Assembly (NCBI GenBank): GCA_903913215.1
Contig: CAIWKE010000021.1
Coordinates: 1-64,000 of the forward strand
Source of the DNA: an uncultured Holophagaceae bacterium
GTDB lineage: Bacteria; Acidobacteriota; Holophagae; Holophagales; Holophagaceae
Reading direction: 5' to 3'
Length of the DNA stretch: 64,000 nucleotides
This document shows positions 1 through 24,886 of this stretch, in pieces. Position 1 is the first letter of the stretch. The number at the start of each line of letters is the position of its first letter. The notes below the pieces were generated by a model. It worked only from the letters and a program-made list of their open reading frames with translations, did not search any database and had not been told where the DNA came from. The position numbers and the translations under genes were made by a program.

Positions 1-139
1 GGGTCTTGAATGTGTCCGCAAGGGTGATGATGGCCTTCAGCTCCTCCTCGGGGTGCTCCCAGGTGAGGAGGAAGTCCTTCTCGAAGAGGTCGGTGTTCAG
101 GGCCTGGAAGGCCCGCAGGTTGTCGGCGAGGCTCGTCAT
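1..139 (-). CDS. ygeW: YgeW-type carbamoyltransferase, N-terminal fragment (cut by window edge)
   Basis: Only the first 46 codons are inside the window; the gene continues beyond position 1. The ATG is at 139 and a GGAG stands 6-9 bases upstream. The fragment contains FEKDFLLTWEHPEEELK, which matches the start of the E. coli YgeW family (knotted aspartate/ornithine carbamoyltransferase-like fold). YgeW sits in the E. coli purine-catabolic region and is thought to handle a carbamoylated intermediate; its exact substrate is not settled. It lies 23 bases after the hydantoinase-type gene in the same direction, so it is probably the last or next gene of that operon. The carbamoyl phosphate it could release is the substrate of the carbamate kinase at 11804-12751. 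Confidence 0.8.
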   Translation of the reverse strand, partial: MTSLADNLRAFQALNTDLFEKDFLLTWEHPEEELKAIITLADTFKT

Positions 140-162: not shown

Positions 163-1527
163 TCAGATGAGGGAAAGAGATGCTGGTGAGGACTGGAGCA
201 GTCGGCCTGTGGGGGCCGCCGGATCGATGAGGTGTCCGTCCTGGGCCCGCAGTTCGCCGCGCAGCAGCACCTGCTTCATGGCCAGGGGGGACGTGAAACC
301 CGGGAAGGCCTCATAGGCATCCGCGGCGGTGGAGCGAAGAGGGCGGAGGGGGCCCTGGGGATCCAGAACCACCAGGTCGGCGTCCATGCCTGGCCGGATA
401 GCGCCTTTGCAGTCGCCAAGACCGGCCCGCTCCGCGGGATTCAGGGAGAGTTGGGTGGCCAGGCCCAGGGCGGCGCGATCGGGATCGTCTTCCCAGATCT
501 TCCAGGTGACGTGGGGCAGGGCGCCCAGGCCTGGCATGCCGTTGGGCACCTGGCGGAGGTCCTGGCCATCCCAGTGGTCCTTGTCCCGGCTGCAGAAGGG
601 GCAGTGGTCCGTGGCGATGATATCGGCGGCGCCAGCTCGCACCAGCTCCAGGAAGGGTGCGCGCTGGCCCCGCAGGGGCGGCGAGCAGAGCCAGCGGTGA
701 CCATCCTCGCGGGCCAACCAGGTCTCATCCAGGAAGAGGTACTGGGGGCAGGTCTCGAAGCTGAGGTCGCCTTTGGGGCGGTGGGCCACCAGGTGGCGCA
801 GGCCCTCCAGGGTGGAGACATGAACCACGTGGGCGGAGGCCTGATGCTGGAGGGCGAGGGCCACCACTTTCTGGATGGCCAGGATCTCTGCGGCCTCGGG
901 GCGCAGCAGGGTGTGGGTGAGGGGCTGGGACAGGTCCATTCCGCTGGCGTCAACGGCCTCGATGAGAGCATCGTCCTCGCAGTGCACCAGGAACTGCGTG
1001 CCCAGGGGACCGAAGCGTTGGAACAGCTCAGCGATGCGCTCGTAGCTGGCGAAGATGCCCGCGGACTTGTAAGTGGTGTAGAGCTTCAGGGTGCGGTAGC
1101 CGCCCGCCAGGAGCACCTGCAGGGTGGCCAGATCCTCAGGACTGAAAGTGGTGGGTGTGAGGTGCCAGAGCACGTCACTGTGGCTCTTGCCTTCGGCCTT
1201 GGCCCGGGCCCGGAGCAGGGCGGTCAGCAGGCTCTCGTCGGTGCCCTGCGTGACAAAGGTGCACAGCGTCGTGATGCCGTTCTCCAGGGCCACCCGGGTG
1301 CTGGACTCGTAGGTGTCCGCCAGGTAGTAGGGGCCGATCTCGTCATCCACGTGGGTGTGGAAGTCGATGAAGCCCGGCAGCACGTAGCAGCCGGCGGCAT
1401 CGATGACCCGGTCCGCCTCGCCACTCTGGGGGCCCAGGGCGGCGATGCGCGCTCCATCCACCAGAACATCGAGGTTCTGGAGGGTGCCGTCGAGGGCCAC
1501 GCGGCCGTTGCGGATGAGGGTCTTCAC
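163..1527 (-). CDS. hydA: Dihydropyrimidinase/hydantoinase-family amidohydrolase (HyuA/HydA type)
   Basis: A 454-residue cyclic amidohydrolase of the dihydropyrimidinase family. Ligands for a two-metal centre are all visible: HTH at 57-59, the lysine expected to be carboxylated at K148 (TLKLYTTYK), H182, H236 and D307 (ATDHC). Length and motif order are normal. Family members open cyclic amide rings such as dihydropyrimidines, hydantoins and related ureides. In E. coli the equivalent gene (ygeZ/hyuA) sits with ygeW, ygeX and ygeY in the urate/purine catabolic region. Here it overlaps the upstream PLP-enzyme gene by ATGA (1524-1527), implying translational coupling, and is followed by ygeW. 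Ring opening of a reduced purine or ureide is the likely role; the precise substrate cannot be read from sequence. Confidence 0.88.
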   Translation of the reverse strand: MKTLIRNGRVALDGTLQNLDVLVDGARIAALGPQSGEADRVIDAAGCYVLPGFIDFHTHVDDEIGPYYLADTYESSTRVALENGITTLCTFVTQGTDESLLTALLRARAKAEGKSHSDVLWHLTPTTFSPEDLATLQVLLAGGYRTLKLYTTYKSAGIFASYERIAELFQRFGPLGTQFLVHCEDDALIEAVDASGMDLSQPLTHTLLRPEAAEILAIQKVVALALQHQASAHVVHVSTLEGLRHLVAHRPKGDLSFETCPQYLFLDETWLAREDGHRWLCSPPLRGQRAPFLELVRAGAADIIATDHCPFCSRDKDHWDGQDLRQVPNGMPGLGALPHVTWKIWEDDPDRAALGLATQLSLNPAERAGLGDCKGAIRPGMDADLVVLDPQGPLRPLRSTAADAYEAFPGFTSPLAMKQVLLRGELRAQDGHLIDPAAPTGRLLQSSPASLSLI

Positions 1528-2738
1528 AGGGACAGGCTGGCCAGGTTGGGCGCGACGGCCGGGGGGATGCTAATGCGGGAGAGCGGGGCTTCCACGTCCT
1601 TGAGGCCATGGCCGGTGGCGAGGATCACCACGGGGCCCGCGCCGGGCAGGCGCTCGGCGCCAGCCTGGAGCTTGATGAGGCCCGCCAGGGCGGTGGCGCC
1701 TGCAGGCTCCGTGAAGATGCCCGTGCGATTGGCGAGGATGGCCTGGGCTTCCAGGATCTCGTCGTCGGTCACGGTGAGCGTGAGGCCGCGGCTCTCCTGG
1801 ATGGCGCGGCGGGCGCCATGGGCGTTGCTGGGGCAGGTGACGGAGATCGAGTCGGCGCGGGTGGTGGGGTTCGCGGCGTCCGAATACTGGCCCGTCTGCA
1901 CGTAGCGGTGGATGGAATCGGAGCTCTCCGCCTGGATGCCGATGAGGCGGGGCAGGTGGTCGATCAGGCCGGCCCGCTGCAGGTCCACGAAGGCCTTGTG
2001 GACGCCGCCCAGGATCACGCCATCCCCCACGGAGACGAGGATGGCCTCGGGCACCTGGAAGCCCAGCTGGGCCCAGATCTCCAACCCTGCCGTCTTCTTG
2101 CCCTCGATGGTGAGGGGGTGATAGGCGGTGTTGCGATTCAGCCCGCCGCGCTGGGCGGTGTAGTCGAGGGAGAGGGCGAAGGCGTCGTCATAGGTACCCT
2201 GGATGGGCACCACCGTGGCGCCGTAGAGGACCATCTGCACGAGCTTGGCCTTGGGGGCCTTCTCCGGCACGAAGATGAGGGCCTTGAGTCCCGCGGAGGC
2301 GCACACGGCCGCCAGGGCCGAGGCGGCATTCCCCGTGGAAGCGGCCACGATGAGATCCATGCCCAGGCGGCGCGCTTCGGCCACCACCAGGAAGGAGGCG
2401 CGGTCCTTGAGGCTGCCGCTGGGGTTGAGTCCGTCGTTCTTCACCCACAGGCTCGAGAGGCCCAGCTCCGCGCCCAGACGATCCACACGACCTAGGGGCG
2501 TGTTGCCCACCGGGAGGGGCGGGTGGAATTCCTTTTCCACAGGGCAGAACAGGTTCCAGTCCGGCTGGGCGCGGTCGAAGGCTCGACGGATGGCCTCGTA
2601 ATCAAAGACCACTTCCAGCACGCCCAGGAGGGGGATGCCGGGGTGGTAGCCCTTCCCGCACTCGGGGCAGAGGTAGCGCACCTCGTCCCTGGAGTAGGTC
2701 CGACCACAGTCCGTGCACCGATAGCTGAAGGGAGTCAT
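1524..2738 (-). CDS. Threonine synthase-like PLP enzyme with N-terminal zinc ribbon
   Basis: A fold-type II PLP enzyme of 404 residues. The start is set at the ATG at 2738, preceded by AAGGAAG; a TTG six codons upstream is less convincing because it lies within that ribosome-binding region. Residues 8-27 form a Cys4 zinc-ribbon (C8, C11, C24, C27). The PLP lysine is K111 in NPSGSLKDRAS. A glycine-rich phosphate loop (STGNAAS) follows. The fold resembles threonine synthase, but context is not amino-acid biosynthesis: the gene is ATGA-coupled to the hydantoinase-type gene and sits among ygeW, ygfK and ygeY homologues. In E. coli this slot holds ygeX, a fold-type II PLP 2,3-diaminopropionate ammonia-lyase. 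I infer an ammonia-lyase acting on an open-chain purine product, replacing YgeX. Plain threonine synthase remains possible. Confidence 0.75.
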   Translation of the reverse strand: MTPFSYRCTDCGRTYSRDEVRYLCPECGKGYHPGIPLLGVLEVVFDYEAIRRAFDRAQPDWNLFCPVEKEFHPPLPVGNTPLGRVDRLGAELGLSSLWVKNDGLNPSGSLKDRASFLVVAEARRLGMDLIVAASTGNAASALAAVCASAGLKALIFVPEKAPKAKLVQMVLYGATVVPIQGTYDDAFALSLDYTAQRGGLNRNTAYHPLTIEGKKTAGLEIWAQLGFQVPEAILVSVGDGVILGGVHKAFVDLQRAGLIDHLPRLIGIQAESSDSIHRYVQTGQYSDAANPTTRADSISVTCPSNAHGARRAIQESRGLTLTVTDDEILEAQAILANRTGIFTEPAGATALAGLIKLQAGAERLPGAGPVVILATGHGLKDVEAPLSRISIPPAVAPNLASLSL

Positions 2739-2804: not shown

Positions 2805-3719
2805 CTAGAAGTGGTATTCGAGCGCCAGCATGAAGCAGCTGACCTGGGGATTCACGGAAGTGAAGACGCCCGTGGAGGCGGTAGCGGCATTGGCGGCAGC
2901 CACGGTCTTGTAGGTGGGATCGCCGAACTTGTTGTCCCAGTACTCGAAGCCGGGGCCGATCTGCCAGGTGCCCTTCTTCGCGCCGAAGACGGGGCTCGCA
3001 TCAAACATCCAGTAGATGTCGACGAGGGTCTCGGGCTTGGTCTTGACGTTGCCGCCATCCTTGCCCTTGGCGCCGGTGTAGGTGCCGAAGCCCTTCACCT
3101 TGGTGTTTACTTCGCCCAGCTTCACATCGATGCCCCAGGCAGCGGCGACCTGGTAGGTGGGATCAAAGGAGACATTGATGTTCTCGCCCTTGTAGGTGGC
3201 GAAGGCGTTGTGGTTCTTTTCGTTGTAGTAGAGGACGCCCAGTGTGAAGAAGCCGGGGACCTGGAAGGCCACCGTGGGGCCAGCCATGACCTTGAACACG
3301 GAAGGAGCGAAGGTGGTGTTCTTGGCGTTGTAGTCCATGCCGGCGGTGAATTCCACGTCGCGCACGATGCCGCCCGACATCTTGGTGCCGAAGAGCTTGC
3401 TCAGGCTGAGGTTGGTGCGGTAGGCCACATAGACTTCCTGGGCGCCGTTGGAACCTTCACCAGCGAACTTGCCAGCGGTGTTCGCAGGATCCTTCGAATC
3501 GGACTTCAGCATGTCCACGTTGAAGAAGTTCGTGCCCATGGAGTAGCCAGACACGTGGCTCAGGGAGTAGATGTCCTTCTTAATGGCGTCCTGGATGCCG
3601 GTTTCCTGGAACTTTGTGCCAGTGCGGTAGCCGAGGAACGTGTCGCTCCAGTCAGCGGCGCTGACGGGGACGGCGGCCAGGGCGGCGAGGCCCAGGGCGA
3701 GGAGGGAAAGTTTCTTCAT
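2805..3719 (-). CDS. Tsx/OmpK-like nucleoside-specific outer-membrane channel
   Basis: A 304-residue outer-membrane beta-barrel. The start at 3719 has AAGGAG upstream and begins a classic signal peptide (MKKLSLLALG...VSA, cleavage before ADWSD). The mature N-terminus DWSDTFLGYRTG, then LSHVSGYSMGTNFFNVDMLKSDSKDP and GAQEVYVAYR, are hallmarks of the Tsx/OmpK nucleoside channel family. The protein ends in phenylalanine, as expected for BAM recognition. In this setting it would let nucleosides or bases across the outer membrane, feeding the BMP-type ABC transporter at 28561-33269. It is monocistronic or semi-independent: its own AT-rich upstream region lies at 3720-4075 and a terminator follows at 2757-2793. 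Confidence 0.85.
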   Translation of the reverse strand: MKKLSLLALGLAALAAVPVSAADWSDTFLGYRTGTKFQETGIQDAIKKDIYSLSHVSGYSMGTNFFNVDMLKSDSKDPANTAGKFAGEGSNGAQEVYVAYRTNLSLSKLFGTKMSGGIVRDVEFTAGMDYNAKNTTFAPSVFKVMAGPTVAFQVPGFFTLGVLYYNEKNHNAFATYKGENINVSFDPTYQVAAAWGIDVKLGEVNTKVKGFGTYTGAKGKDGGNVKTKPETLVDIYWMFDASPVFGAKKGTWQIGPGFEYWDNKFGDPTYKTVAAANAATASTGVFTSVNPQVSCFMLALEYHF

Positions 3720-4075: not shown

Positions 4076-7000
4076 TTATACGCCCCCCTGGGCATGGGTG
4101 GGCAGGACGCTTTCAGCGTTCAGCAGGGCGATGAGGGTGCCGCACGGGGCCAAGTCCACGGCGCAGCCCTCGGGCAAGACGGCGAGGCCCTGGAAGCCCC
4201 TGAGGGACCAGGTGCCGACCTGCAATTGGGCTTCCACCTGCTCGCTGCGGTACTGGGCCATGTCGCCTCGGAGTTCCAGTCTGTGGGCCTTGCCGCCGAG
4301 GCGGGCCTCAATGCTGAGGCCATCAGCTTTGTGGAGGAACCGGAACACGTCCCCCTTCGCCTCCTGGAAGCCCTCCTCGTCGATCCAGAAGCGGGGCTTG
4401 TCCTTGTAGGGGGCACCGGCGGCGGGGCAGAAGCTATCGCAGTTGCCGCACTCGTTGCAGAAGTCACCGATGTTGAGGGTCTGGACCCGCTGCTTCACGG
4501 CGAAGGGCGCGCTGCCCTCGGCCACCAGGCGGCCCTGGCGCTGCACCAGGCGGGGCAGGTCCAGGCTGAAAGGCTCCAACTCGTAGGCCAGGTTGGCGCG
4601 ATTGGGGCAAACCGTGACGCAGAGGCTGCAGAGATCGTCGCAGTCCAGGCAACGGGCGGCCTCGATGGCGGCGGACTCGGCTGTGAAGGGCTTGATCACC
4701 TCGTCGAACCCGTGGCGCTGCGTGAGGGGCAGCACAGGCACCTTCTGGGCCCCCTGCAGACGGCCTTTCTTCTCCATGAGAGCAGCATCGGCCTGGCTCT
4801 TCACGAGCAGGGGTTCCGGCTTCACGTCCACGCCATGGCGCCGGGCGATGCCCTCGGCCACGGCTCGGCCATCGGCGATGGCCATGATGACGGAGGAGGC
4901 TCCGTGCACCACGTCGCCCCCGGCAAAGAGACCCGGTACGGAGGTCTCCCGGCTCTTGGGATCAATCACCAGGTAGCCATTGTGGTTGCGCTTGATCTCC
5001 AGGCCTCCAAGGAAGTCCAGTACGGCCTCCTGGCTGATGGCCGAGATGATGGTGTCTGCGGGCACCACTTCCTCGGCACCCTCCATGGGCACGGGGCGGG
5101 GCCGCCCCGAGGCGTCCCGCTCGCCCAGGCGCATGCGGGTGCAGGAGAGGCCGACGACCTTGCCGTTCTCGGCCACCACGGAAGCCGGAGCCAGCAGGTC
5201 CCTGATCTGGATGCCTTCTTCGATGCAGTCGTGGACTTCAGCCGGGTCGGCGGGCATCTGGGCCCGGGTGCGGCGATACACGATGGTCACCTCGCCGCCC
5301 GGCACCAGCCGGATGGCGGAGCGGACGGCGTCCATGGCGGAGTTGCCCGCGCCGATGACGAGGATACGCTTGCCCAGGTCCATGGGCGTGCCCGCGCGGA
5401 CCTTGTCCAGGAAGTCCAGGGCGTCCATGACGCCGGGCGTATCTTCACCCGGAATACCCAGGCGCTTGCCCTTCTGTGCGCCCACGGCCAGGAACACGCT
5501 GGGGTAGTCACGGCGCAGACTCTCCAGGCTGAAGTCGCGGCCCAGGACCTTGCCCAGGTGGATGGGGACACCCAGTTGCTTGAGGCGGATCAGATCCCCC
5601 TCCAGAGTCGCGTTGGGCAGGCGGTAGGCGGGGATGAGGCCGCCCACCATGCCACCCAGCTCGTGCTTGGCTTCGAAGACCTCTGGATCGAATCCCGCCT
5701 TGGCCAGGAAGTAGGCCGCAGAAAGACCCGCAGGGCCGGCGCCCACAATGGCCACCTTGACGCCCACGGACTTGCCGCGCACTTCGGTGGGACGCGGGCC
5801 CGCTGCTTCGAACGCGAAGCGCTTGATCTCCCGGATGGCCAGGGGCGCGTCGTAGAAGTTGCGCACGCACTTCTCGGTGCATGGGTGGTCGCAGACGCTG
5901 CCTGTGATGCCGGGCTGGGGGTTGGTGCGGAGAATGACCTCCATGGCCTCGGCGGGCTTGCCATGGGCCACCAACCACAGGTAGTCGGGGATGTTCTGGT
6001 TGGTGGGGCAGCCGTCCACGCAAGGGGCCTCGATGCAGTCGAAGCTGCCCAGAGGGCGATGGCCTTTGAACTCCAAGGGGCGGGTGCGGCGCACATAGGT
6101 GTCGTCACCCATGGCCTTCACGCCGTGGCAGGCCAGGTTGAAGCGGGCACCGCGGCCGCCGGAGCGGGCCTCGATGAAGCCGTCCAGGTTGGTGGCGCCC
6201 ACCTCGGCCATGGCGGCCTCGAGGTTGACCAGGTACTGCTGGAGTCGGGCGTAGCCGCCGGGTTTGAGCAGGTCCGTGCAGACCGTGATGGGACCCAGGC
6301 CGTCGGCCACTAGGTCCGCGAAGTTGCGGGCATCGGCGCCGCCGCAGAAGCTGATGGACACCTTCCCGTCCAGCTCCTCCACGACCTGCTGGGCCAGGGT
6401 GAGGGTGATGGGATGCAAGGCCCGGCCCGACATGTACATCATCTTCTCGGCGCTGGGGAAGATGGGGCGGTGGTTCACAACTTCGAGGGTGTTCGAGAGC
6501 TTGAGTCCGAAGCCGTTCTCGCGGCCCTCAGCCAGCTGGGCCAGGCGCTTGACCATGGCGATGGCGTCGTCCCACTTGGGATCGTGGCCGAAGGCCTCGT
6601 CGGGTACCGTGATGTCGAACCCCAGGGTCTCGTTGAGGATGCTGCGCAGGCGCTGGGGCCCCAGCAGGGTGGGGTTCAGCTTCACCCAGGTGTGGACCTT
6701 CAGCTCCGTGAGCAGGAAGGAGGCGATGCGCTCGATCTCGGCAGGGGGGCAGCCGTGCATGGTGGAGAGGGTGATCTGGTTGGAAAGCTCCGTGGGGATG
6801 GCGATGTCCCGCACGCCGGGGTAGATCTTCGCCACGGTGTCGATGGCGGCCTGGAGAGCCGCGCCGCCGTTCCGCATGTCGGCGATGAACTTCTGCACAC
6901 GGGGGTGCTGGATGCCCTCCAGGTTGTAGCCCACGCTCATGCTGAAGTGGGTGCCCGGATTCTTCAGGCCCAGCTTGTGCGCCAGGGCATGGATCAGAAC

Positions 7001-7378
7001 CCAGCCATTCAGGTATTCGGTGAAGGATTCTTCGAGCTTCAGCTCCTGGGACCACTCACAGTTGTAGGTTTCGTCCGCAGCGTCGATGCAGGGACGGCTC
7101 ACGGCGATCTCGTCGAGGATCTGAACGGTTTTCAGCTCGATGAAGCGGGCTCCACAGAGCCAGCTGGCCACGATGTTCTGGGCCAGCTGGGTGTGGGGTC
7201 CTGCGGCCACGCCCAGGGGGGCGGCCACGGTATGGCCGAACATCTCCCGGGCGAGGCTGGGACTGGGAATCTGGAAGTTCTGTTTCGGGATCCCCATGAC
7301 GGAATCCCTGGTCTCCAGCTCATGGAAGATCCAGCTGGTGAGCAGCTCGAGAGAGGCAGAGCGAAAAGCTTTTTCCAT
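4076..7378 (-). CDS. ygfK: YgfK, multi-domain FeS/flavin oxidoreductase of the purine/selenium hydroxylase cluster
   Basis: An 1100-residue protein homologous along its length to E. coli YgfK (often named putative selenate reductase subunit). Domains: dihydroorotate dehydrogenase-like barrel at about 40-400 (AAGPHTQLAQNIV, LSTMHGCPP, KLNPTLLG); a glutamate-synthase-type FeS region with C448, C453, C457 and C496, C500, C504; FAD-binding GAGPAG at 546-551; NAD(P)-binding GAGNSA at 676-681; and two C-terminal ferredoxin-like Cys clusters (C910, C913, C917, C920, C924 and C974, C977, C980, C984). It is built to move electrons from a nicotinamide nucleotide to a substrate through FeS and flavin. 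In E. coli and gut anaerobes it is tied to anaerobic urate/purine breakdown; reduction of a purine ring is a reasonable inference. The start aligns with the E. coli N-terminus. Confidence 0.9.
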   Translation of the reverse strand: MEKAFRSASLELLTSWIFHELETRDSVMGIPKQNFQIPSPSLAREMFGHTVAAPLGVAAGPHTQLAQNIVASWLCGARFIELKTVQILDEIAVSRPCIDAADETYNCEWSQELKLEESFTEYLNGWVLIHALAHKLGLKNPGTHFSMSVGYNLEGIQHPRVQKFIADMRNGGAALQAAIDTVAKIYPGVRDIAIPTELSNQITLSTMHGCPPAEIERIASFLLTELKVHTWVKLNPTLLGPQRLRSILNETLGFDITVPDEAFGHDPKWDDAIAMVKRLAQLAEGRENGFGLKLSNTLEVVNHRPIFPSAEKMMYMSGRALHPITLTLAQQVVEELDGKVSISFCGGADARNFADLVADGLGPITVCTDLLKPGGYARLQQYLVNLEAAMAEVGATNLDGFIEARSGGRGARFNLACHGVKAMGDDTYVRRTRPLEFKGHRPLGSFDCIEAPCVDGCPTNQNIPDYLWLVAHGKPAEAMEVILRTNPQPGITGSVCDHPCTEKCVRNFYDAPLAIREIKRFAFEAAGPRPTEVRGKSVGVKVAIVGAGPAGLSAAYFLAKAGFDPEVFEAKHELGGMVGGLIPAYRLPNATLEGDLIRLKQLGVPIHLGKVLGRDFSLESLRRDYPSVFLAVGAQKGKRLGIPGEDTPGVMDALDFLDKVRAGTPMDLGKRILVIGAGNSAMDAVRSAIRLVPGGEVTIVYRRTRAQMPADPAEVHDCIEEGIQIRDLLAPASVVAENGKVVGLSCTRMRLGERDASGRPRPVPMEGAEEVVPADTIISAISQEAVLDFLGGLEIKRNHNGYLVIDPKSRETSVPGLFAGGDVVHGASSVIMAIADGRAVAEGIARRHGVDVKPEPLLVKSQADAALMEKKGRLQGAQKVPVLPLTQRHGFDEVIKPFTAESAAIEAARCLDCDDLCSLCVTVCPNRANLAYELEPFSLDLPRLVQRQGRLVAEGSAPFAVKQRVQTLNIGDFCNECGNCDSFCPAAGAPYKDKPRFWIDEEGFQEAKGDVFRFLHKADGLSIEARLGGKAHRLELRGDMAQYRSEQVEAQLQVGTWSLRGFQGLAVLPEGCAVDLAPCGTLIALLNAESVLPTHAQGGV

Positions 7379-7446: not shown

Positions 7447-8979
7447 CTAGGCCTTGCTGGCGAAGACGGTGGGGAAGCGAGCGAGGAAGGCCGCGCTGTG
7501 CTGGAGTTCCCGTTCGTCGAGGCACTCGCCGATCTTGTGCGTGTTCTGCTCGATGCCCGTGCCGAACCCGATCATGGCGGGGTGCTTGTAGACATCATTG
7601 GACACCCACTGCTTCTTGGCGGCGCCGGGGACACTGGCGGCCTTCGGGATGGGATAGCCCACGCCGTCGGTGCTGAAGACCCAGCGGTCCACGCGGGGCT
7701 CCTTGGTGAGGCACCCGCCCGTGCCGACCTTGCCGTCGACGTTGGGGGAGATGACTGCCTTGTAGGCACTCACGGCCGCCTGCACAGCGGGGTGCTCCTC
7801 GGGGGTGAGCCAGCCCAGGTAGACCTGGGGGTTGTTCAGGACATAGCCCTTCCAGGAGGCGTCCGTGTAGGTGGGGATGGAGACTTCCACCTTCAGGCCG
7901 GCCTTGCGGGCGGTCTCCACGGCGTCTAGGGCTTCCACATCGGCCACGGACTGCTCCGGCGTCTCACCGATGGTGAGGCGGCGGTCGAAGCGGAAGGTGA
8001 ACTTCTCAGGCACGGCGCAGTCGCTGGGGGTGTCCAGCTTGGCCCAGGAGGCGGTGCGGGTGCCATGGCCCAGGAACTTGTCATCCTTGAAGCCGATGCG
8101 CTTGTCGTACTTCTCGGCGGCCTCCTTCACGATGGCGCCGCCGAATTCGAGGGGGTTCTTGCCTTCCCAGGGCATGGAGCCGTGGCAGGACTTGCCGGTG
8201 ACTGTGACTTCGATCTGCATGCGGCCGCGCTGGCCGCGGTAGATGCCCAGGGCACCGTTCTTGGAGCAGCCGGTGCTGTCCGTGAGGATCACCACGTCGG
8301 GGACGATCTCGGGGCCGGCAGTGGGGAAGACCTGGCGGTTGAGGAACATGGGGCCGGCACCGTCGTTGTCTTCTTCGCAGACCGTGGCGTAGGAGCGCAC
8401 GATGACACCCTTGAGGGCGCCCTCAGCTTCCAACTCCAGCATGATCTTCGTGGCGATGGCTGCGGAGATGACACCACCCAGCTGGTCTGCGGAGCCGCGG
8501 CCGAAGATGAGGTGGTTCCACTCGTTCTCGGGAGGCAGGTAGCCCAATTCCTTGTTCAGGAAGGCCTTGTTGACCTTCGTGGCGTCTTCGAGGCCGTTGA
8601 AGCAATCGATGCCGCTGTTCTGGAGCCACTGGGCGCGGAGGGGCTTCACGGTGTCCGTGTGGCCGTCGATGTAGATGACCTTCTTCTCAGAGGAGGGGAT
8701 GCCATCGTTGGGGTCTTCGACCCACCAGACCAGGTTGCCGAAGTCATCGAAGAAGGCGTCCTCATCCTTGCGGACGGCCTTGATCGCCACAATCTTCTTG
8801 CGGAGGTAGTCGATGCGGGGGAACTCGTGGTTGGAGGTGCCGCACTGAGGATCACCGCCCTGCTCGGGGCTCTTGTCGACGTAGTCTGCTGGGATGCGAA
8901 TGGCCTCCTTCAGCATTTCCGAGGCGAGGGGCAGGTATTTGGCTGCCAGTTCCGCGATGCGGACGTCAAGGTTCGACAT
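7447..8979 (-). CDS. YgeY-like M20 metallohydrolase, extended form
   Basis: A 510-residue M20/ArgE/DapE-family zinc hydrolase. Metal and catalytic positions are visible: H107 and D109 (DGHTDTV), bridging D165 (RGSADQLGG), E202/E203 (CEEDNDG), D234 (LTDSTG) and H481. M20 proteins cleave amide bonds of small N-acyl or N-carbamoyl compounds. Its place beside ygfK, hydA and ygeW makes it the counterpart of E. coli YgeY, but it is about 100 residues longer than that protein, with extra segments near residues 85-160 and in the C-terminal half. It lies between the single-chain molybdenum hydroxylase and ygfK, all on the same strand. A role in hydrolysing an opened-ring purine intermediate is inferred; peptidase activity cannot be excluded. 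Confidence 0.78.
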   Translation of the reverse strand: MSNLDVRIAELAAKYLPLASEMLKEAIRIPADYVDKSPEQGGDPQCGTSNHEFPRIDYLRKKIVAIKAVRKDEDAFFDDFGNLVWWVEDPNDGIPSSEKKVIYIDGHTDTVKPLRAQWLQNSGIDCFNGLEDATKVNKAFLNKELGYLPPENEWNHLIFGRGSADQLGGVISAAIATKIMLELEAEGALKGVIVRSYATVCEEDNDGAGPMFLNRQVFPTAGPEIVPDVVILTDSTGCSKNGALGIYRGQRGRMQIEVTVTGKSCHGSMPWEGKNPLEFGGAIVKEAAEKYDKRIGFKDDKFLGHGTRTASWAKLDTPSDCAVPEKFTFRFDRRLTIGETPEQSVADVEALDAVETARKAGLKVEVSIPTYTDASWKGYVLNNPQVYLGWLTPEEHPAVQAAVSAYKAVISPNVDGKVGTGGCLTKEPRVDRWVFSTDGVGYPIPKAASVPGAAKKQWVSNDVYKHPAMIGFGTGIEQNTHKIGECLDERELQHSAAFLARFPTVFASKA

Positions 8980-9041: not shown

Positions 9042-11642
9042 TCAGGATTTGTTCTTCTTGCCGAGCAGCTTCATTTCCTTGAGAGGCAGGGTGGTGCGGC
9101 GGATGCCATCGTGGCTCCAGAGCGCGTTGCCCACGGCGGCGGCGGTGGGCACCAGGCCGATTTCACCCACGCCCTTGGCGCCATAGGGGCCATGCTCATC
9201 CGTGACTTCCACGCCGATGACTTCCATGTCGGGCATGTCTTTGGAGCGGATGAGCCCCAGGTCCGCCATCTTCCAGGACACCGGGAAGCCGTCCTTGTAA
9301 GGGAAGTCCTCGGTCACGGCATAGCCAAGGCCCATGTGCAGCGCGCCCTCGATCTGGCCTTCGAAGAGGGTGGGGTTCATGATCTTGCCGGCGTCATGGG
9401 CGGCGGTGATGCGGGTGATCTTCCCGGTCTCGTCCAACTCCACCATCTGGGCCGCGAAGCCGTAGGAGTAGTGGGTGACGATGGGTTTGCCCGCCGGGGG
9501 CTCGTAGCCCACCTTGGTGGTCCAGTCGCAAGCCCACTCGCCGCGGAACTCCTGGCCCACGAGGTCGGCCAGGGTCTTACCGCCCTCGAGCAGTTGCTTG
9601 AGATTCCGGCTGGCCACCTTCACGGAGTTGCCCACCAGGGAGGTGCCCCGGCTGGCGGTGGTCATGCCGCAGGAGGTCTCCTCGTCGGTCTCCACCCGAA
9701 CTTCGATGATGGCTGGATCGATGCCGGTTTCGGTGACCAGGGTCTGGAGGGCCATGTTGTGGGCCCCCTGGCCCATCTCGCACCAGCCGTGGTGGAGCAC
9801 TACTTTGTCGGCAGCCAGGATTTGGATCTTGGCCCGGCCGATGTCCACCATGCCGCAGCCGATGCCGGTGTTTTTGATGCCGGCGGCGATGCCAGCGTAT
9901 TTGGCGGCCTGGAAACGGTCCTTGAGAGCCTCCAGGCAGGCGCGCACGCCCACGCCGGACGTGAGGATCTGGCCGGTGGCCGTGGCCTTGCCCTCCACCA
10001 GGGCGTTGTCCCAGCGGAACTGCCAGCGGTCGAAGCCGCCCATGGCGCAGAGCTCGTCCACGGCGCTCTCGATGCCAAAGCAGGCCTGGTTGGCGCCAAA
10101 GCCACGCATGGCGCCGCAGGAGGCGTTGTTGGTGATGACCGCGGTGCCCTTCACGTGGACGTTGGGAATGGCATAGGCCCCTGCAGAGTGGGCCACGGCC
10201 CGCTCGATGACCTTCATGCCCACGCTGGCATAGGCGCCGGAATCCGAGACCATGTTCGCCACCAGGGCCGTGAGCTTGCCTTCCTTGTCACAGCCCACCT
10301 GGTAGTCCATGACGATGGGATGGCGCTTGGCGTGCATGCGGAGCGAGGTCTTGCGGTCAAAGCGGAGCATGACGGGGCGGCCGGTCTTCACGCAGAGCAG
10401 GGCCGCATGGTGCTGGCCCATGAGGTCTTCCTTGCCGCCGAATCCGCCGCCGTTCTGCACCAGCACATCGTTGACCAGGCTTTCCGGCAGGGCCAGCAGC
10501 TCCGCGATCTGGCGTCGGTTCTCGTAGCCGCCCTGGCCACCATCGAAGATCTTTACACCGGCCTGACCGTCCTTGGACCAGGGCACCGCCAGGGCTGCCT
10601 CGGGCTCCATGAAGGCGTGCTCGATGCGCTGGGTGGTGTACCGCTTGCGGACCACGAAGGCGGCCTCGGCCAGCACCTTCTCGGCCTCGCCGACATTCAC
10701 TTCGGAAATCGAGAGGGTGTTGCCCTTGGGCGTGAGCTGGGGTGAGCCGGGCGCCAGGGCCTCGAAGGGATCCGTGACCGGGGCGAGCACCTCATAGGTG
10801 ACGCGGACCAGCGCGGCGGCTTCCCGGGCGATCTCCTCGGTTTCGGCGGCCACGATGGCCAGCACATCCCCGATGCAGCGGGTCTCCTCGCCTTCCATGA
10901 TCATCACGGGCCAGTCCCGGTAGATCATGCCGTTCACTCGCTGGCCCGGGATGTCCTGGGCCTTGAGGACGCTCACCACGCCGGGCAGCTTCTGGGCCGC
11001 GCTGATATCAACACTCAGGACCTTGGCCCGGGGGTGGTCGGAGAAGTGCAGGGCGGCGTAGAGCATGTCCGGCTCTTTCATGTCCGCCACGAAGACTCGC
11101 TGGCCCAGGACGGCTTCCCGGCCCGTGTATTTGGGATGCCGGGTGCCGATGGCGCCGGTGCCCTGGGGATATTCCACGGGCAGGCCCGAGCGCAGGGCCT
11201 CGGCGGCGCACTCGATGGAGTCCACCACTTTCTTGTAGCCGGTGCAGCGGCAGAGGTTCCCGTTGATACCGTCCACGATCTCCTGCCGGCTGGGGTTGGG
11301 ATTCTTCTGGAGGATGGCCGCGGCCTTCATGACGATGCCCGGGGTGCAGAAGCCGCACTGGACGCCGCCCTTCACCACGAAGCCGTCGGCGAAGGCATCC
11401 TGCTCGGCCTTGGACAGGCCCTCGATGGTGGTGAGGCTCTTGCCCGCCACATCCTTCATGGCCATGCGGCAGCTCAGGCGGGCCTTGCCATCGACGAGGA
11501 TGGTGCAGCAGCCGCAGATGCCCTCGCCGGAGCAGCCATCCTTGGGGCTGACGATGCCCGCCACCTCACGCAGGTAGGTGAGCACGTCCAGTTCAGGATC
11601 GGCCTCGAAACGCGTGAGAGTACCGTTGAGCGTGAAGTCCAT
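9042..11642 (-). CDS. Single-chain selenium-dependent-type molybdenum hydroxylase (XdhD-like; FeS-FeS-Mo)
   Basis: An 866-residue xanthine oxidase-family enzyme with two [2Fe-2S] domains fused to the molybdopterin part and no FAD domain. First cluster C37, C43, C46, C58; second cluster C96, C99, C131, C133. Molybdopterin-binding motifs are GGGFGGKED (398-406), GAMRGFGANQ and CEMGQGAH; the catalytic glutamate is E827 (KGVGEIG). This architecture is that of E. coli XdhD and of selenium-dependent xanthine dehydrogenases, whose Mo carries a labile selenium ligand, not selenocysteine. Selenium use is inferred from architecture and from the selD/yqeB/yqeC genes nearby. GGAGG precedes the ATG. It starts a run with the YgeY-like hydrolase and ygfK. 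Purine hydroxylation (xanthine, hypoxanthine or reverse urate reduction) is likely; electrons presumably go to a separate flavoprotein. Confidence 0.85.
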   Translation of the reverse strand: MDFTLNGTLTRFEADPELDVLTYLREVAGIVSPKDGCSGEGICGCCTILVDGKARLSCRMAMKDVAGKSLTTIEGLSKAEQDAFADGFVVKGGVQCGFCTPGIVMKAAAILQKNPNPSRQEIVDGINGNLCRCTGYKKVVDSIECAAEALRSGLPVEYPQGTGAIGTRHPKYTGREAVLGQRVFVADMKEPDMLYAALHFSDHPRAKVLSVDISAAQKLPGVVSVLKAQDIPGQRVNGMIYRDWPVMIMEGEETRCIGDVLAIVAAETEEIAREAAALVRVTYEVLAPVTDPFEALAPGSPQLTPKGNTLSISEVNVGEAEKVLAEAAFVVRKRYTTQRIEHAFMEPEAALAVPWSKDGQAGVKIFDGGQGGYENRRQIAELLALPESLVNDVLVQNGGGFGGKEDLMGQHHAALLCVKTGRPVMLRFDRKTSLRMHAKRHPIVMDYQVGCDKEGKLTALVANMVSDSGAYASVGMKVIERAVAHSAGAYAIPNVHVKGTAVITNNASCGAMRGFGANQACFGIESAVDELCAMGGFDRWQFRWDNALVEGKATATGQILTSGVGVRACLEALKDRFQAAKYAGIAAGIKNTGIGCGMVDIGRAKIQILAADKVVLHHGWCEMGQGAHNMALQTLVTETGIDPAIIEVRVETDEETSCGMTTASRGTSLVGNSVKVASRNLKQLLEGGKTLADLVGQEFRGEWACDWTTKVGYEPPAGKPIVTHYSYGFAAQMVELDETGKITRITAAHDAGKIMNPTLFEGQIEGALHMGLGYAVTEDFPYKDGFPVSWKMADLGLIRSKDMPDMEVIGVEVTDEHGPYGAKGVGEIGLVPTAAAVGNALWSHDGIRRTTLPLKEMKLLGKKNKS

Positions 11643-11803: not shown

Positions 11804-12751
11804 TTAGTCGCGGACGATGCGGGTTCCCACTGTGGCCGGAGCCTCCGTGGCCAGGGCCTCGGCCGTGGTGATGAGCACTTCCTGGCCGCCCCCTTCGAGG
11901 TAAGTGAGGGCGCTTTCGATCTTGGGGCCCATGCTGCCCGCCGGGAACTGCCCCTCGGCCAGGTGTCGGCGGGCCTCCGTCGCCGTGAGGCGGTCCACCC
12001 AGCGCTGAGTGGGCTTGCCATAGTCCAGGGCGACCTTGCTCACCCCTGTGAGGATGATGAAGAGGTCGGCCCCCAGCTGGGCCGCCAGCAGGGCACTGAG
12101 GCGATCTTTGTCGATGACCGCTTCCACACCCACCAGGAAGCCGCTGGCATCGCGAATGACGGGAATCCCGCCGCCGCCACCGGCGATGACCGAGCTGCCG
12201 GACTGGAGCAGGGTCTTGATGGCCTGGAGCTGCACGATCTCCAGGGGCCTGGGTGAGGGCACCACCTTGCGCCAGCCGCGCCCAGAGTCCTCCTTCATCT
12301 TCCAGCGGTTGGCCCGCATGAGCTCCATGGCGCGGAACTCAGGATAGAAGGGGCCCACGGGCTTGGTGGGGTCCTGGAAACCCTTGTCTGCCTTGTCCAC
12401 CACCACTTCGGTGAGCACCGAGGTGACGGGGCTCTCCAGGCCCAGGAAGCGCAGTCGGTTGATGAGCATGCGCTCCAGCATGTAGCCCATGGAGCCCTGG
12501 GTCATGGCGCCGCAGACATCCAGGCTGTAGGGGGGGATCTGACCCGAGCCCGCCTCCTGCTGGATGAGCAGGTTCCCTACCTGGGGCCCGTTGCCGTGCA
12601 CCACGCAGAGGGCGTAGCCCTCGGCGACGACCTTCGCCAGCATCTCGGCTGTCTCCCGGGCATTTTCGAGCTGTTCTTCCTGGAGCCCGTGCTCCTTCTC
12701 TTTGAGGAGTGCGTTGCCACCGATGGCCAGGAGAGCGATTTTGCGGGTCAT
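11804..12751 (-). CDS. arcC: Carbamate kinase
   Basis: A 315-residue carbamate kinase of normal length. Family signatures are present: IALLAIGGNALL at the N-terminus, HGNGPQVGNLL, the SVIAGGGGGIPV segment, and AVIDKDRLSALLA. It transfers phosphate from carbamoyl phosphate to ADP, giving ATP, CO2 and ammonia. In fermentative purine or allantoin breakdown this is the ATP-yielding step. A carbamoyl phosphate source is suggested by the YgeW-type carbamoyltransferase at the left edge. The gene stands between the xdh operon and the XdhD-like gene, with a 164-base repeat-bearing gap upstream and a 161-base regulatory gap downstream, so it may be read through from the xdh operon. Confidence 0.93.
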   Translation of the reverse strand: MTRKIALLAIGGNALLKEKEHGLQEEQLENARETAEMLAKVVAEGYALCVVHGNGPQVGNLLIQQEAGSGQIPPYSLDVCGAMTQGSMGYMLERMLINRLRFLGLESPVTSVLTEVVVDKADKGFQDPTKPVGPFYPEFRAMELMRANRWKMKEDSGRGWRKVVPSPRPLEIVQLQAIKTLLQSGSSVIAGGGGGIPVIRDASGFLVGVEAVIDKDRLSALLAAQLGADLFIILTGVSKVALDYGKPTQRWVDRLTATEARRHLAEGQFPAGSMGPKIESALTYLEGGGQEVLITTAEALATEAPATVGTRIVRD

Positions 12752-12915: not shown

Positions 12916-13782
12916 TCAGGCCTGGGTCAGCTCGCGCAGCATCTGGGCCAGGAGGTTGCCGGTGACCACGCTGCGGTAGTGGGCTGTGGCGCGGATGTCG
13001 TCGATGGGGCTGATGTCGCTTCCCAAGGCCAGACGTGCAGCTTCGATGGGCAGGCTGGCCAGGGGCTGACCCAGAAGCAGTTGCTCGACGGCTCGGGCCC
13101 GCACCGGGGCCGGAGCCACGGAACCCAGGCCGATGCGCAGTTCCGCCACGCAGCCCTTCTCAAGGCGGGCGTAGGCGGCCAGACAGACTTTGGAGATGGC
13201 CTGGGCCTGGCGGGTGCCCACCTTGCGGAAGTAGTGGAAGCCCCGGCCCGTGGGCTTGGGCACAAGCACCTTCGCTACCAGCTCGTCTGGGGCCAGGTCC
13301 ATCTGCTTGTAGCCCTGGTGGAAGCTGGCGTAGGCTACGCGGCGGCTGCCCAGGACGGAGACCAGCTCCAGCTCCGCGCCGTAGGCCAGAAGGCTGGGCG
13401 GCGTGTCCGCGGCAGGGCTGGCATTGGCGATGTTGCCCCCCAGGGTGCCACGGTTCTGGATGGCCAGGGCCCCGGTGACCTGGGCGCTCTTCACCAGGTT
13501 GGGGAAGTGCTGGTGCACCGCGCGGCACTCGCGCAGGTCCGTGTAGGTGGAGAGGGATCCGAAGCTGAGGAGGTTGTTGTCCTCCGCAATGCCGCGCAGC
13601 TCGGTCAGGCGGGAGAGGTCGAGGAAACGCGTGGCCTTCAGGTGGCCCGCATTGAAGACCACCATGAGGTCCGTGCCTCCAGCCAGGGGCGTCCAGAGGC
13701 CAGGCTCTGCGGCCAGGAGGGTGAGCGCCTCGCCCAGCGTGGCAGGCACGCGGACCTCAACGGGGGGCAGGTAGCCTCTCAT
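12916..13782 (-). CDS. Molybdenum hydroxylase FAD-binding subunit (second three-subunit enzyme)
   Basis: A 288-residue CoxM/XdhB-type FAD subunit. The ATG at 13782 overlaps the stop of the FeS-subunit gene by ATGA and has GGAGG upstream. FAD-binding motifs are PLAGGTDLMVV near residue 40 and NRGTLGGNIANASPAAD near 110. It would pass electrons from the [2Fe-2S] subunit to NAD+ or another acceptor. It completes the Mo (14245-16482), FeS (13779-14252), FAD set whose gene order differs from the neighbouring xdhA-xdhB-xdhC set. Substrate is not readable from sequence, but context favours a purine or related heterocycle. Confidence 0.85.
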   Translation of the reverse strand: MRGYLPPVEVRVPATLGEALTLLAAEPGLWTPLAGGTDLMVVFNAGHLKATRFLDLSRLTELRGIAEDNNLLSFGSLSTYTDLRECRAVHQHFPNLVKSAQVTGALAIQNRGTLGGNIANASPAADTPPSLLAYGAELELVSVLGSRRVAYASFHQGYKQMDLAPDELVAKVLVPKPTGRGFHYFRKVGTRQAQAISKVCLAAYARLEKGCVAELRIGLGSVAPAPVRARAVEQLLLGQPLASLPIEAARLALGSDISPIDDIRATAHYRSVVTGNLLAQMLRELTQA

Positions 13783-14252
13783 CGGGCCTCCCTGGCGGCG
13801 GTCTGGACTGCGTCCACGATTTTCACGTAGCCCGTGCAGCGGCAGAGATTCCCGGCCAGGCCCTCGCGGACAGCAGCTTCGTCGGGGTGGGGGTTCCGCT
13901 GCAGCAGGTCCGTGGCGGCCAGGAGCATGCCCGGCGTGCAGAAGCCGCACTGGGCGCCGTTCTGCGTAAGGAAGGCGTCCTGCAAGCTGGAGAGCCGTTG
14001 GCCGTCCGCCAGGCCCTCCACCGTGACAATCTCGCCGCCCTGGGCCTGGACTGCGGGCACCAGGCAGCTGTTCACCAATCGGCCGTTCAGCAGGATGCTG
14101 CAGACACCGCACTCACCCTCGCCGCAGCCCTCCTTGGTGCCGGTGAAGCGCAGGTCCTCCCGAAGCACATCCAGCAGCCGGGCGAAGGGATGTACCTGCA
14201 GGCTGTGCGACTGGCCATTCACCTTCAGGCTGAGCATGATCTGGTCAGCCAT
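13779..14252 (-). CDS. Molybdenum hydroxylase [2Fe-2S] subunit (second three-subunit enzyme)
   Basis: A 157-residue CoxS/XdhC-type iron-sulfur subunit with two clusters. The plant-type ferredoxin motif GCGEGECGVCS supplies three cysteines near residues 43-52, with a fourth at NSC. The second, helical cluster uses QCGFCTPG and LCRCTGY. Its start overlaps the Mo-subunit stop by 8 bases and its stop overlaps the FAD-subunit start by 4, so all three are translationally coupled. It relays electrons from the molybdenum centre to FAD. Confidence 0.88.
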   Translation of the reverse strand: MADQIMLSLKVNGQSHSLQVHPFARLLDVLREDLRFTGTKEGCGEGECGVCSILLNGRLVNSCLVPAVQAQGGEIVTVEGLADGQRLSSLQDAFLTQNGAQCGFCTPGMLLAATDLLQRNPHPDEAAVREGLAGNLCRCTGYVKIVDAVQTAAREAR

Positions 14253-16482
14253 GGGCCACCTCCTCGCAGCGGGACAGCAGGCGGTCCGGGGTCATGGGCA
14301 CTTCGTCCAGGCGCAAAGGCCCCAGCGCATTTTCAAGCGCATTGGCGAGGGCCGGGGCGGGCCCGTCCATGGGCAGCTCGCCGATGCCCTTGGCACCGCC
14401 GGGACCGGCGTGGTGGGCGTTCTCCAGGAAGACCACGCGGATGCGGGGCAGGTCGGCGCTGGTGGGGATGATGTAGTTGGTCATCTGGTTGTTCACCATG
14501 CGGCCCTGCTTCATGGTGACCTCCTCCCAGAGGCCCCAGCCGATGCCCTGGGCCACGCCGCCCTCGATCTGGCCGGCGGCCAGGGTGGGGTTCACCACGC
14601 GGCCCACCTCCTGCACGGCCACGAAGTCTTCGACTCGCACCTCGTAGGTGTCCAGGTCTACGGCCACCTCGGCCGCGTAGGCGCCCCAGCTGTAGGTGGG
14701 ATAGGCGTCGCCCCGGTAGGTCTTGTCGTCCCAGCTGATGTTGGGGGGCCGGTGGTACTGGCCATAGCAGCGGAGCCTGCCCAGGTGGGCCACGGCCTTC
14801 TTCACGGCGGCCTGGAAGGCTTCGGCGGTGTAGGGCTCCTGCAGGAAGCCCTGCTGTACCAGACTCTGTTTGAAGCCGATGGCGGCGTCCTCGAGGATTC
14901 GGCCCACCATCATGGTGCTGCGGGAGGCCACCGTGGGGCCGCTGTTGGGCACATGGTCCGTGTCCACGCAGGCCACGTCCACCAGCTCATAAGGGAGGCC
15001 CAGGGCCTCGGCCACAATCTGGGCGAAGACGGTGTTCTTGCCCTGACCCATTTCTGTCGAGGCGGCCAGCACGGACACGGTGCCGTCAGACAGGCCCTCC
15101 ACACCGGCCACGGAGGCCACGTGGGACTCGCCATTGCCCGTGAAGCCGCAGCCATGCATGAAGACAGCCAAACCCAGGCCACGCTTGATGGGGCCGCTTT
15201 CCGTGTTGGTGATGGCGTGGGCCGCCCGGCGATCAGCGTAGTGGATTTCCGCGAGGGCGCGGTCCATGAGGCCTGGGAGGTCCAGGTCCTCGCGGATCAC
15301 CTGGCCCGTGGCCATGGTGTCGCCCATGTGGAGGAAGTTGCGTCGGCGCAGTTCCACGGCATCCAGGCCCAGCCTGCGGGCGCAGAGGTCCATGTGGCGC
15401 TCGATGGCGAAGAGGCTCTGGGGGGCGCCGAAGCCCCGGAAGGCGCCGGGGGGCGGCGTGTTGGTGGCCACGGCCCGGGCGTGGATGCGCACGTTCGGGC
15501 AGCGGTAGACGCCCCCCACATGCACGGCGCCCCGACTCAACACCACGGGCGAGAGAGTGGCATAGGCTCCGCCGTCCAGCACGAAATCCGCTTCCAGGGC
15601 CAGCAGGTGGCCCTCGGCGTCGAAGGCCGTGCGCAGGCGGGTGCGGGAGGGATGGCGCTTGGTGGTGCAGGCCAGGTCCTCCTCACGGTCGTAGATGAGG
15701 CGAACAGGCAGGCCGCTCTTCCAGCTGAGCAGGGCCGCGTGGCCCGCGTTCACCGAGGGGTAGTCCTCCTTGCCGCCGAAGGCGCCGCCCATCTCCATGG
15801 CCACCACCCGCACCCGCCCCTCGGGCAGGCCGAAAAGCTGTTTGAGGGCGCCGTGCACGTAGTAGGGGCACTGCAGGGAACCCCAGACCGAGACCCGGGT
15901 CTCCGCGCCGCGCTCCACCAGGGCCAGCATGGCGTTGGGCTCGAGATACATCTGCTCCTGGGCCCCGGTGCGGTACTCGCCCACGACGACATGGGCCGCC
16001 TGGGCCCAGATGGGGGCTGGATCGCCCTTCTCGATGCGGATCTCTTTGAGGAGGTTGTCCGTGCTGTAGATGACCTGCTCCAGGTCCAGGGAGGCCTGGA
16101 TGTCCAGGATGGCGGGCAGCTCGTCCACCACCAGGCGCACAGCTGCGCGGGCCCGCTCGGCCTCGGCCCGGTCGGAGTGGGCCAGCAGCAGAATGGGCTG
16201 CTCGGGATGGGTGATCTCCTCGCCCAGGCCCACCAGGAAGGGCTGGTCATCCACGACGGAGGCCACACGGTTGGTGCCGGGGATGTCCGCAGCGGTGACG
16301 ATCGTGAACTCGTCCCAGGCGATGCCTTCGCCGAACACAATCTCCCGCAGAATGCCTCGGGGCACCGAGGACCGCACGGTGACGCCGTGGAGGGCTCCGG
16401 GCATGAACTTGTCATCGGTGTAGATGGCCGTACCCAGGACCTTGGCGCGACCTTCCTTGCGGACTGAGTTGGCGCCGATCAT
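14245..16482 (-). CDS. Molybdenum hydroxylase Mo-binding subunit (second three-subunit enzyme)
   Basis: A 745-residue CoxL/XdhA-type catalytic subunit. The ATG at 16482 overlaps the upstream FeS gene stop (ATGA), which decides the start; an open frame continues upstream but is out-of-phase sequence over the FeS gene. Molybdopterin and substrate motifs: MGGAFGGKEDYPS, PGAFRGFGAPQ, STEMGQGKN and the catalytic glutamate in GAKGIGELP. It is clearly diverged from the XdhA at 17867-20194 and is closer in motif style to aldehyde/purine hydroxylases. Possible substrates include hypoxanthine, nicotinate-like rings or purine derivatives; I cannot decide between them. Confidence 0.85.
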   Translation of the reverse strand: MIGANSVRKEGRAKVLGTAIYTDDKFMPGALHGVTVRSSVPRGILREIVFGEGIAWDEFTIVTAADIPGTNRVASVVDDQPFLVGLGEEITHPEQPILLLAHSDRAEAERARAAVRLVVDELPAILDIQASLDLEQVIYSTDNLLKEIRIEKGDPAPIWAQAAHVVVGEYRTGAQEQMYLEPNAMLALVERGAETRVSVWGSLQCPYYVHGALKQLFGLPEGRVRVVAMEMGGAFGGKEDYPSVNAGHAALLSWKSGLPVRLIYDREEDLACTTKRHPSRTRLRTAFDAEGHLLALEADFVLDGGAYATLSPVVLSRGAVHVGGVYRCPNVRIHARAVATNTPPPGAFRGFGAPQSLFAIERHMDLCARRLGLDAVELRRRNFLHMGDTMATGQVIREDLDLPGLMDRALAEIHYADRRAAHAITNTESGPIKRGLGLAVFMHGCGFTGNGESHVASVAGVEGLSDGTVSVLAASTEMGQGKNTVFAQIVAEALGLPYELVDVACVDTDHVPNSGPTVASRSTMMVGRILEDAAIGFKQSLVQQGFLQEPYTAEAFQAAVKKAVAHLGRLRCYGQYHRPPNISWDDKTYRGDAYPTYSWGAYAAEVAVDLDTYEVRVEDFVAVQEVGRVVNPTLAAGQIEGGVAQGIGWGLWEEVTMKQGRMVNNQMTNYIIPTSADLPRIRVVFLENAHHAGPGGAKGIGELPMDGPAPALANALENALGPLRLDEVPMTPDRLLSRCEEVAHG

Positions 16483-17003
16483 GAGGCGGGGCCTTCGTTC
16501 GAGGCCTCGGCAGCTTCGCGCAGGGCGCGCTCGGCGGCGTCCACGATCTTCTGGTAGCCCGTGCAGCGGCAGAGGTGGCCGGACAGCTCGCGGCGGACCT
16601 CGTCGTGGCTGAAGCTGCGGCCGCTTTCGACCATGGCCGTGGTGGAGAGCACCAGGCCCGGAGTGCAGAAGCCGCACTGGATGGCACCCTCATCCACGAA
16701 GGCCTCCTGCACCGGAGAAAGCACGCCGTTGCTGGCCACGCCCTCGATGGTGGTGATGGTCTTCCCGTGGGCCCAGGCCGCCAGGTAGATGCAGGAATTG
16801 GTGGGCACGCCGTCGATGAGCACCGTGCAGGCGCCGCACTCGCCCACGGAGCAGCCCTGCTTCACACCCGTGAACTGGAGGCGGTCGCGGAGCACATCCA
16901 GGAGGGACTCCCGGATATCGATCTCGATCTCCACGGCCCGGCCGTTGACGGTCATGGCCAACCGCTTCTTGGCCAACACACCCGCACTATTTTTCGTCAG
17001 CAC
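16479..17003 (-). CDS. xdhC: Xanthine dehydrogenase [2Fe-2S] subunit
   Basis: A 174-residue iron-sulfur subunit close to E. coli XdhC: QGCSVGECGACTVLIDG, NSCIYLAAWAHGK, IQCGFCTPGLVLSTTAM and HLCRCTGYQKIV. It carries both [2Fe-2S] clusters. It overlaps xdhB upstream (16987-17003) and the next Mo subunit downstream (ATGA), so it links two hydroxylase operons into one translationally coupled unit. The first 17 residues precede the conserved domain and the real start could be the ATG at codon 17 (position 16955). Confidence 0.88.
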   Translation of the reverse strand: MLTKNSAGVLAKKRLAMTVNGRAVEIEIDIRESLLDVLRDRLQFTGVKQGCSVGECGACTVLIDGVPTNSCIYLAAWAHGKTITTIEGVASNGVLSPVQEAFVDEGAIQCGFCTPGLVLSTTAMVESGRSFSHDEVRRELSGHLCRCTGYQKIVDAAERALREAAEASNEGPAS

Positions 17004-20194: not shown

Positions 20195-20318
20195 TCGGCA
20201 CCTCCGAGGGAGGCGGGAAACCCACACCCGCCGCACCTGAAAGTATGGAATGGGGGGGAAGAAATGGTAAAAAAATTACCTCGGGCAGGTCACAATTTTC
20301 ATTAATCCACAGGACTTG
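20195..20318 (-). promoter_or_regulatory. xdhA upstream region with candidate promoter and palindrome
   Basis: An AT-rich gap between yedF and xdhA. On the minus strand TTTACC (20266-20271) and CATACT (20242-20247), 18 bases apart, could be -35 and -10 elements. A perfect inverted repeat GGTAA-AAAAA-TTACC (20266-20280) overlaps that -35 and is a natural operator candidate. The xdh operon may thus be controlled separately from the selenium genes upstream. Confidence 0.4.
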
Positions 20319-24877: not shown

Positions 24878-24886
24878 GACAGGGGC

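Follow-up and report, generated by a model that had tools for sequence, protein, structure and literature searches.

In 2025 the reductive pathway of uric-acid breakdown was elucidated, its final enzyme being YgeX; YgeY and YgeX together take albizziin via 2,3-diaminopropionate (DAP) to pyruvate (PMC12507026). YgeX was scored there as any PF00291 protein near ssnA (PMC12507026), so that clusters with the two proteins considered below would have counted as having it. Whether the intermediates are D- or L-configured was posed as a question in PMC12990295. The clusters of E. coli, C. difficile and C. sporogenes (PMC12507026, PMC12990295) have HyuA, YgeW, YgfK, SsnA, YgeY, YqeA and xanthine dehydrogenase (XDH) in common with those described here; the difference lies in the terminal lyase slot, which here is taken by a threonine-synthase-like protein, ThrCL, usually together with a second PLP protein of 485 aa, PALP485. 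No paper placing either protein in a uric-acid role was found in the literature searched, that outside subscription papers and preprints, and what we describe is probably a variant ending of an already known pathway.

The locus and its surroundings

The window, the whole 64,000-nucleotide stretch analysed, occupies the left end of a contig 83 kb long, from a 3.9-Mb genome in 41 contigs that is 95% complete. All features given below with window coordinates alone are on the reverse strand where a strand was assigned. The ThrCL gene (1524–2738, reverse strand) starts with the ATG at 2738, five bases 5′ of which the purine-rich AAGGAAG can be read, and encodes 404 aa. Residues 76–376 match Pfam PALP (2.1e-74), and the N-terminal Cys4 ribbon (C8, C11, C24 and C27; codons within 2658–2717) has Cys at all four positions in each of the 37 close relatives aligned from the uricolytic clade. 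The description in the initial annotation of a fold-type II PLP enzyme of threonine-synthase type with a Cys4 zinc ribbon is thus borne out. Its proposal of translational coupling to the hydantoinase-type gene is plausible, since the TGA of ThrCL (1526–1524) and the GTG of that gene (1527–1525) overlap by the four bases GTGA. Just upstream of ThrCL, after the gene for an outer-membrane-type protein, is a terminator-like hairpin (2762–2793; −32.8 kcal/mol, z −3.3).

The surrounding genes are a reductive uric-acid cluster. Its left edge is the start of ygeW, for a knotted carbamoyltransferase, truncated by the contig end (1–139; beginning MTSLADNLRAF and matching YgeW, an intact relative of which, at L011, passes TIGR03316). 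This is followed by the 454-aa HyuA-type cyclic amidohydrolase, or hydantoinase (163–1527; TIGR02033 260 bits, under the cut-off of 393), and, beyond ThrCL, by YgfK (4076–7378; TIGR03315 907 bits, cut-off 835), the E. coli counterpart of which is a flavin-dependent yanthine reductase, by a YgeY-like M20 hydrolase (7447–8979; NF009555 202 bits, under the cut-off of 321), by a xanthine dehydrogenase of selenium-dependent type that is a candidate XdhD-like protein (9042–11642; TIGR03311 882 bits, cut-off 830), by a YqeA-like carbamate kinase (11804–12751; NF009007 329 bits, cut-off 266) and by two XDH sets (12916–20236), one with FAD, Fe-S and Mo subunits (~12916–16677) and one XdhC/XdhB/XdhA (~16539–20236). 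With SsnA, which is on contig C16 after a ygeW tail, the set of YgfK, SsnA, HyuA, YgeW, YgeY, YqeA and XDH is complete for the genome, and in closed relatives it is contiguous.

Several neighbours merit separate mention. The outer-membrane-type protein (2805–3719; 304 aa, with a signal-peptide-like start) is the neighbour of ThrCL at no fewer than 18 further loci and may be a purine channel; an identification of it as Tsx was withdrawn, Pfam assigning no family. The YgeY-like hydrolase has 510 aa as against about 403 in E. coli, and the YgeY model covers only its residues 154–508. Further along, the stretch 21176–28488 holds genes for an AIRS protein (SelD-like), a class-V aminotransferase, YqeB- and YqeC-like proteins and a second selenium-type XDH, and looks like a maturation set for selenium-dependent molybdenum hydroxylases.

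Linkage and distribution

Eighty related loci were taken from genome contigs. At least one of PALP485, YgeY, YgeW, SsnA, HyuA, YgfK, YqeA and XDH was present at 64 of 71 ThrCL loci, and two or more at 57; nine control ThrC loci had none of them. Only 8 of the 50 genomes having ThrCL contain a protein passing the YgeX cut-off, and the Verrucomicrobia, Ignavibacteria and Spirochaetes clusters are not among the eight. Many ThrCL-bearing genomes are incomplete metagenome-assembled ones, and presence was called by score thresholds.

The class Holophagae was represented by 93 genomes, 60 of them good (at least 90% complete). Among these 60, ThrCL and YgfK occur together in 18 and are both lacking in 40, with one genome in each of the discordant classes (p=4e-13). 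The corresponding figures for YgeX and YgfK are 7 with both, 4 with YgeX only, 12 with YgfK only and 37 with neither (p=0.03). ThrCL is present and YgeX absent in 11 of the 19 good genomes with YgfK, and the reverse is seen in none. PALP485 too tracks YgfK closely in the class. That YgeX is missing merely through broken genomes is ruled out by two closed, single-contig genomes (G122 and G123), which carry a contiguous YgeY-YgfK-permease-OMP-ThrCL-HyuA-YgeW-PALP485-SsnA cluster and in which YgeX was not found. In another genome (G127) the cluster is present too, and a YgeX lies at a distance of 1.77 Mb from it, with no uricolytic genes next to that YgeX. Two Spirochaetes loci (L054 and L059) have an E. 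coli-like array of YgfK, SsnA, YgeY, XdhD and YgeW in which ThrCL comes immediately behind YgeY; they lack YgeX.

The cluster is also found in an archaeon. Plasmid pNG700 of Haloarcula marismortui (L138, 12030–31188) carries a hydantoinase-type gene, ThrCL, a xanthine permease and an F420-type LLM reductase in that order, as well as genes for an SsnA-like hydrolase, for a D-aminoacylase that its annotation makes UacY-like, for an allantoate-amidohydrolase-type enzyme and for XDH, which apparently amount to a complete haloarchaeal uricolytic cluster. Its ThrCL keeps K111, A114, S115, A138 and D239, lacks equivalents of the ThrC residues N154, S155 and R160, and is the sole PLP enzyme of the cluster. 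No PALP485 was detected on any of the haloarchaeal plasmids searched.

Taken together, the near-perfect tracking of YgfK by ThrCL, the closed genomes without YgeX and the Haloarcula plasmid make replacement of YgeX well supported for the ThrCL clade.

Two other departures from the E. coli arrangement were seen among the loci. At L036 (4943–7429) and 11 others, mostly from Verrucomicrobia, the YgfK slot beside SsnA is taken by a fusion of about 830 aa, of a GltD-like flavoprotein with a PreA/DHO_dh domain; this dihydropyrimidine-dehydrogenase-like protein is likely to be a further variant of yanthine reductase. At L060 (986–2996) and L068 (6671–8894) a tandem pair of YgeW-like carbamoyltransferases precedes YqeA and ThrCL, and might allow ATP to be gained by phosphorolysis of both ureido groups.

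Relation to YgeX

ThrCL and YgeX (PDB 4d9m and 5ygr; E. coli and Salmonella) share fold-type II (Z 34–35), the slot in the pathway and a number of positions, those of DTAW/NTAY-like character and of Tyr168/Tyr183. They differ in having 18–19% identity, in HMM family and in the zinc ribbon of ThrCL. None of the YgeX models (NF006058, TIGR03528 and TIGR01747) is among the best 25 models for ThrCL, and the residues D120 and D189 of E. coli YgeX, presumably its acid/base catalytic residues, align with T and N. In the phylogeny the uricolytic ThrCL proteins form a clade (support 88) apart from ThrC; the tree is rooted on the distant YgeX, and the branching of ThrC among the ThrC-like proteins is not firm. 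HMM comparison and tree alike reject ThrCL as a YgeX orthologue.

How does this bear on the proposal in the initial annotation of a non-orthologous replacement in the YgeX position? The protein is no orthologue of YgeX, is linked to the cluster and takes the place of YgeX across related genomes; replacement is not forced in the window's genome, which is among the minority also having a bona fide YgeX, and PALP485 competes for the step. As to position, the claim holds loosely, the local order being OMP-ThrCL-HyuA-YgeW and not YgeW-YgeX-YgeY-HyuA, though in Verrucomicrobia and Spirochaetes relatives ThrCL directly follows YgeY.

Other PALP proteins and ygeW copies of the same genome

The window's genome encodes nine PALP proteins. 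One, directly after thrB on contig C11, is a canonical long ThrC; ThrCL is thus not the sole threonine synthase-like gene, the case that the initial annotation had set against its own reading. Another (L005) is a genuine YgeX (NF006058 303 bits, cut-off 276), which rules out strict replacement of YgeX within this genome; YgeX is also carried by nine other Holophagae. PALP485, a divergent PALP, lies between a ygeW tail and ssnA (L098:383–1837, contig C16). There is also a second module (L099:388–3699), of a ygeW tail, yqeA, the gene of this YgeX and an M20 hydrolase, possibly a separate route for ureido-amino acids.

Heads of ygeW are at both ends of the window's contig, C21 (window 1–139; L097 ~19013–19151), and ygeW tails open contigs C16 and C35 (L098 and L099, 1–361), the first 141 bases being common to both. 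There are, then, two near-identical ygeW copies, and their collapse by the assembler broke the assembly. Contiguous relatives (L011, L014, L015, L100 and L101) suggest that the window would continue as ThrCL-HyuA-YgeW-PALP485-SsnA; one locus (L033) shows the alternative, a continuation into yqeA-ygeX.

Which PLP enzyme, and which reaction?

PALP485 belongs to a highly conserved fold-type II PLP family without a curated model, seen next to ygeW or ssnA at L098 and 37 other loci. Its sequence resembles cysteine synthase (103 bits), and its structural model (pLDDT 90) matches beta-cyanoalanine synthase and OASS (Z 32–36). Since its pairing with ThrCL is near-strict (45 of the 50 ThrCL genomes have it, often as the adjacent gene), joint working of the two is suggested, perhaps because intermediates are D-configured. 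It could even be that PALP485 is the DAP lyase and that ThrCL performs a neighbouring PLP step, such as racemisation of D-DAP to L-DAP or a group elimination or exchange on a ureido-amino acid, with YgeX replaced by the two of them jointly. Apart from the co-occurrence, this somewhat unlikely alternative draws on the beta-elimination carried out by the cysteine-synthase/OASS families, on the closeness of the serine racemase fold to the ThrCL model (Z 36) and on a genome (G053) where PALP485 is followed by a different zinc-ribbon-bearing PALP, as if a partner were needed. Against it are the Haloarcula plasmid cluster, with ThrCL and no PALP485, and relatives of PALP485 in Rhizobium and Bosea that have no uricolytic genes in their vicinity.

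Enzymes with the look of threonine synthase and other beta-chemistry have precedent in cysteate synthase and CapA2. CapA2, which is ThrC-like (Z 41.8), and the IlvA/TdcB-type deaminases (Z 35–37) are among the structural neighbours of ThrCL, and some genomes have ThrCL and YgeX both, so that one may think of ThrCL as a generalist Ser/Thr/DAP dehydratase, or as a catalyst of beta-replacement (DAP and sulfide to cysteine, for example), in some other catabolic or salvage role, with the DAP step left to YgeX where present. We regard this as improbable, with YgeX missing from most cluster-bearing genomes and the ThrCL signature strictly conserved with the cluster. Identity as cysteate synthase or CapA was rejected (cysteate_syn 63 bits, cut-off 325; no sulfonate genes in the cluster).

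As for threonine synthase itself, the predicted structure of ThrCL (AlphaFold, pLDDT 95) has ThrC as its best match. The two share the fold (PDB 2c2b, 6cgq, 1v7c and 2d1f; Z 42–46) and the PLP lysine motif. Sequence identity is 33–36% to the bacterial enzymes (about 313 residues) and 29% to that of Arabidopsis (367 residues). ThrCL and ThrC differ in what surrounds the lysine and in the substrate pocket, as well as in the uricolytic context of ThrCL. In the alignment the invariant K111 (2406–2408) is within NPSGSLKDRAS where ThrC has NPTGSFKDRGM, an A instead of G at position 114 and an S instead of M at 115 marking off the ThrCL family; the STGNA loop (2325–2339) corresponds to STGNT, and TAYHPLT (2109–2129) stands where ThrC has NSxNPxR. 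Sixty-eight ThrCL sequences were aligned with 14 of ThrC, of which five come from the PDB, eight are presumptive ones of archaea and one is that of the window's genome. T88, N154, S155, R160, Q164 and N188 (Thermus numbering) are present in all 14 ThrC and in none of the 68 ThrCL, which have A138, T/S204, A/G205, T/M/L210, K214 and D239 instead, A138 and D239 (2022–2024) without exception. All of the six but Q164 presumably bind the substrate phosphate in the Thermus enzyme. By these residues ThrCL would not function as a threonine synthase.

That it is nonetheless an ordinary one located in the cluster by chance hardly merits credence: it passes TIGR00260 (thrC; 188.8, cut-off 167.1), its nearest fold is that of ThrC (Z 45.6) and the Haloarcula member is annotated thrC/threonine synthase, but the closer ThrC model PRK08197 gives 231, under the cut-off of 303, the uricolytic linkage extends across phyla and to an archaeon, and the loss of ThrC-invariant pocket residues from every member, together with the genome's own thrB-thrC, leads to rejection.

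The proposed ending of the pathway

With a candidate enzyme in the clusters for every other step, DAP cleavage is the vacant one, and by this pathway-hole argument it is assigned to ThrCL. On balance we lean slightly towards ThrCL as the terminal DAP lyase, standing in for YgeX in many lineages, usually with PALP485; the substrate, the beta-elimination chemistry and the choice of ThrCL over PALP485 as actor are all read from sequence and context. ThrCL would have its origin in the threonine-synthase branch of the fold-type II PLP enzymes and have turned amino-acid lyase. The change of R160 to a neutral residue and of N188 to Asp may have converted an anion pocket to one suiting a cationic ammonium side chain such as that of DAP. 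The substrate would form the PLP aldimine on K111 and undergo alpha-proton abstraction, and beta-elimination would give ammonia and aminoacrylate, the latter yielding pyruvate and a second ammonia. In the window's genome such a ThrCL would coexist with YgeX. Counting against ThrCL as DAP lyase are the co-occurrence of PALP485, the ten Holophagae with YgeX, the T and N at the YgeX aspartate positions and the TIGR00260 match.

More tentatively, ThrCL and PALP485 may constitute an undescribed, YgeX-independent two-enzyme PLP module finishing anaerobic uric-acid and purine breakdown in many phyla, with ThrCL alone in haloarchaea; the module could be two-step (racemase and lyase) or a heteromeric lyase, and many genes labelled threonine synthase would belong to it.

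If ThrCL, with PALP485, does perform the last step, the pathway would reach Acidobacteriota, Verrucomicrobiota, Spirochaetota, Myxococcota, Chloroflexota and haloarchaea, where today it looks incomplete. The two proteins bear on the question of D- or L-intermediates raised in PMC12990295. On the same condition, predictions of amino-acid prototrophy would be led astray by a family that carries the label of threonine synthase.
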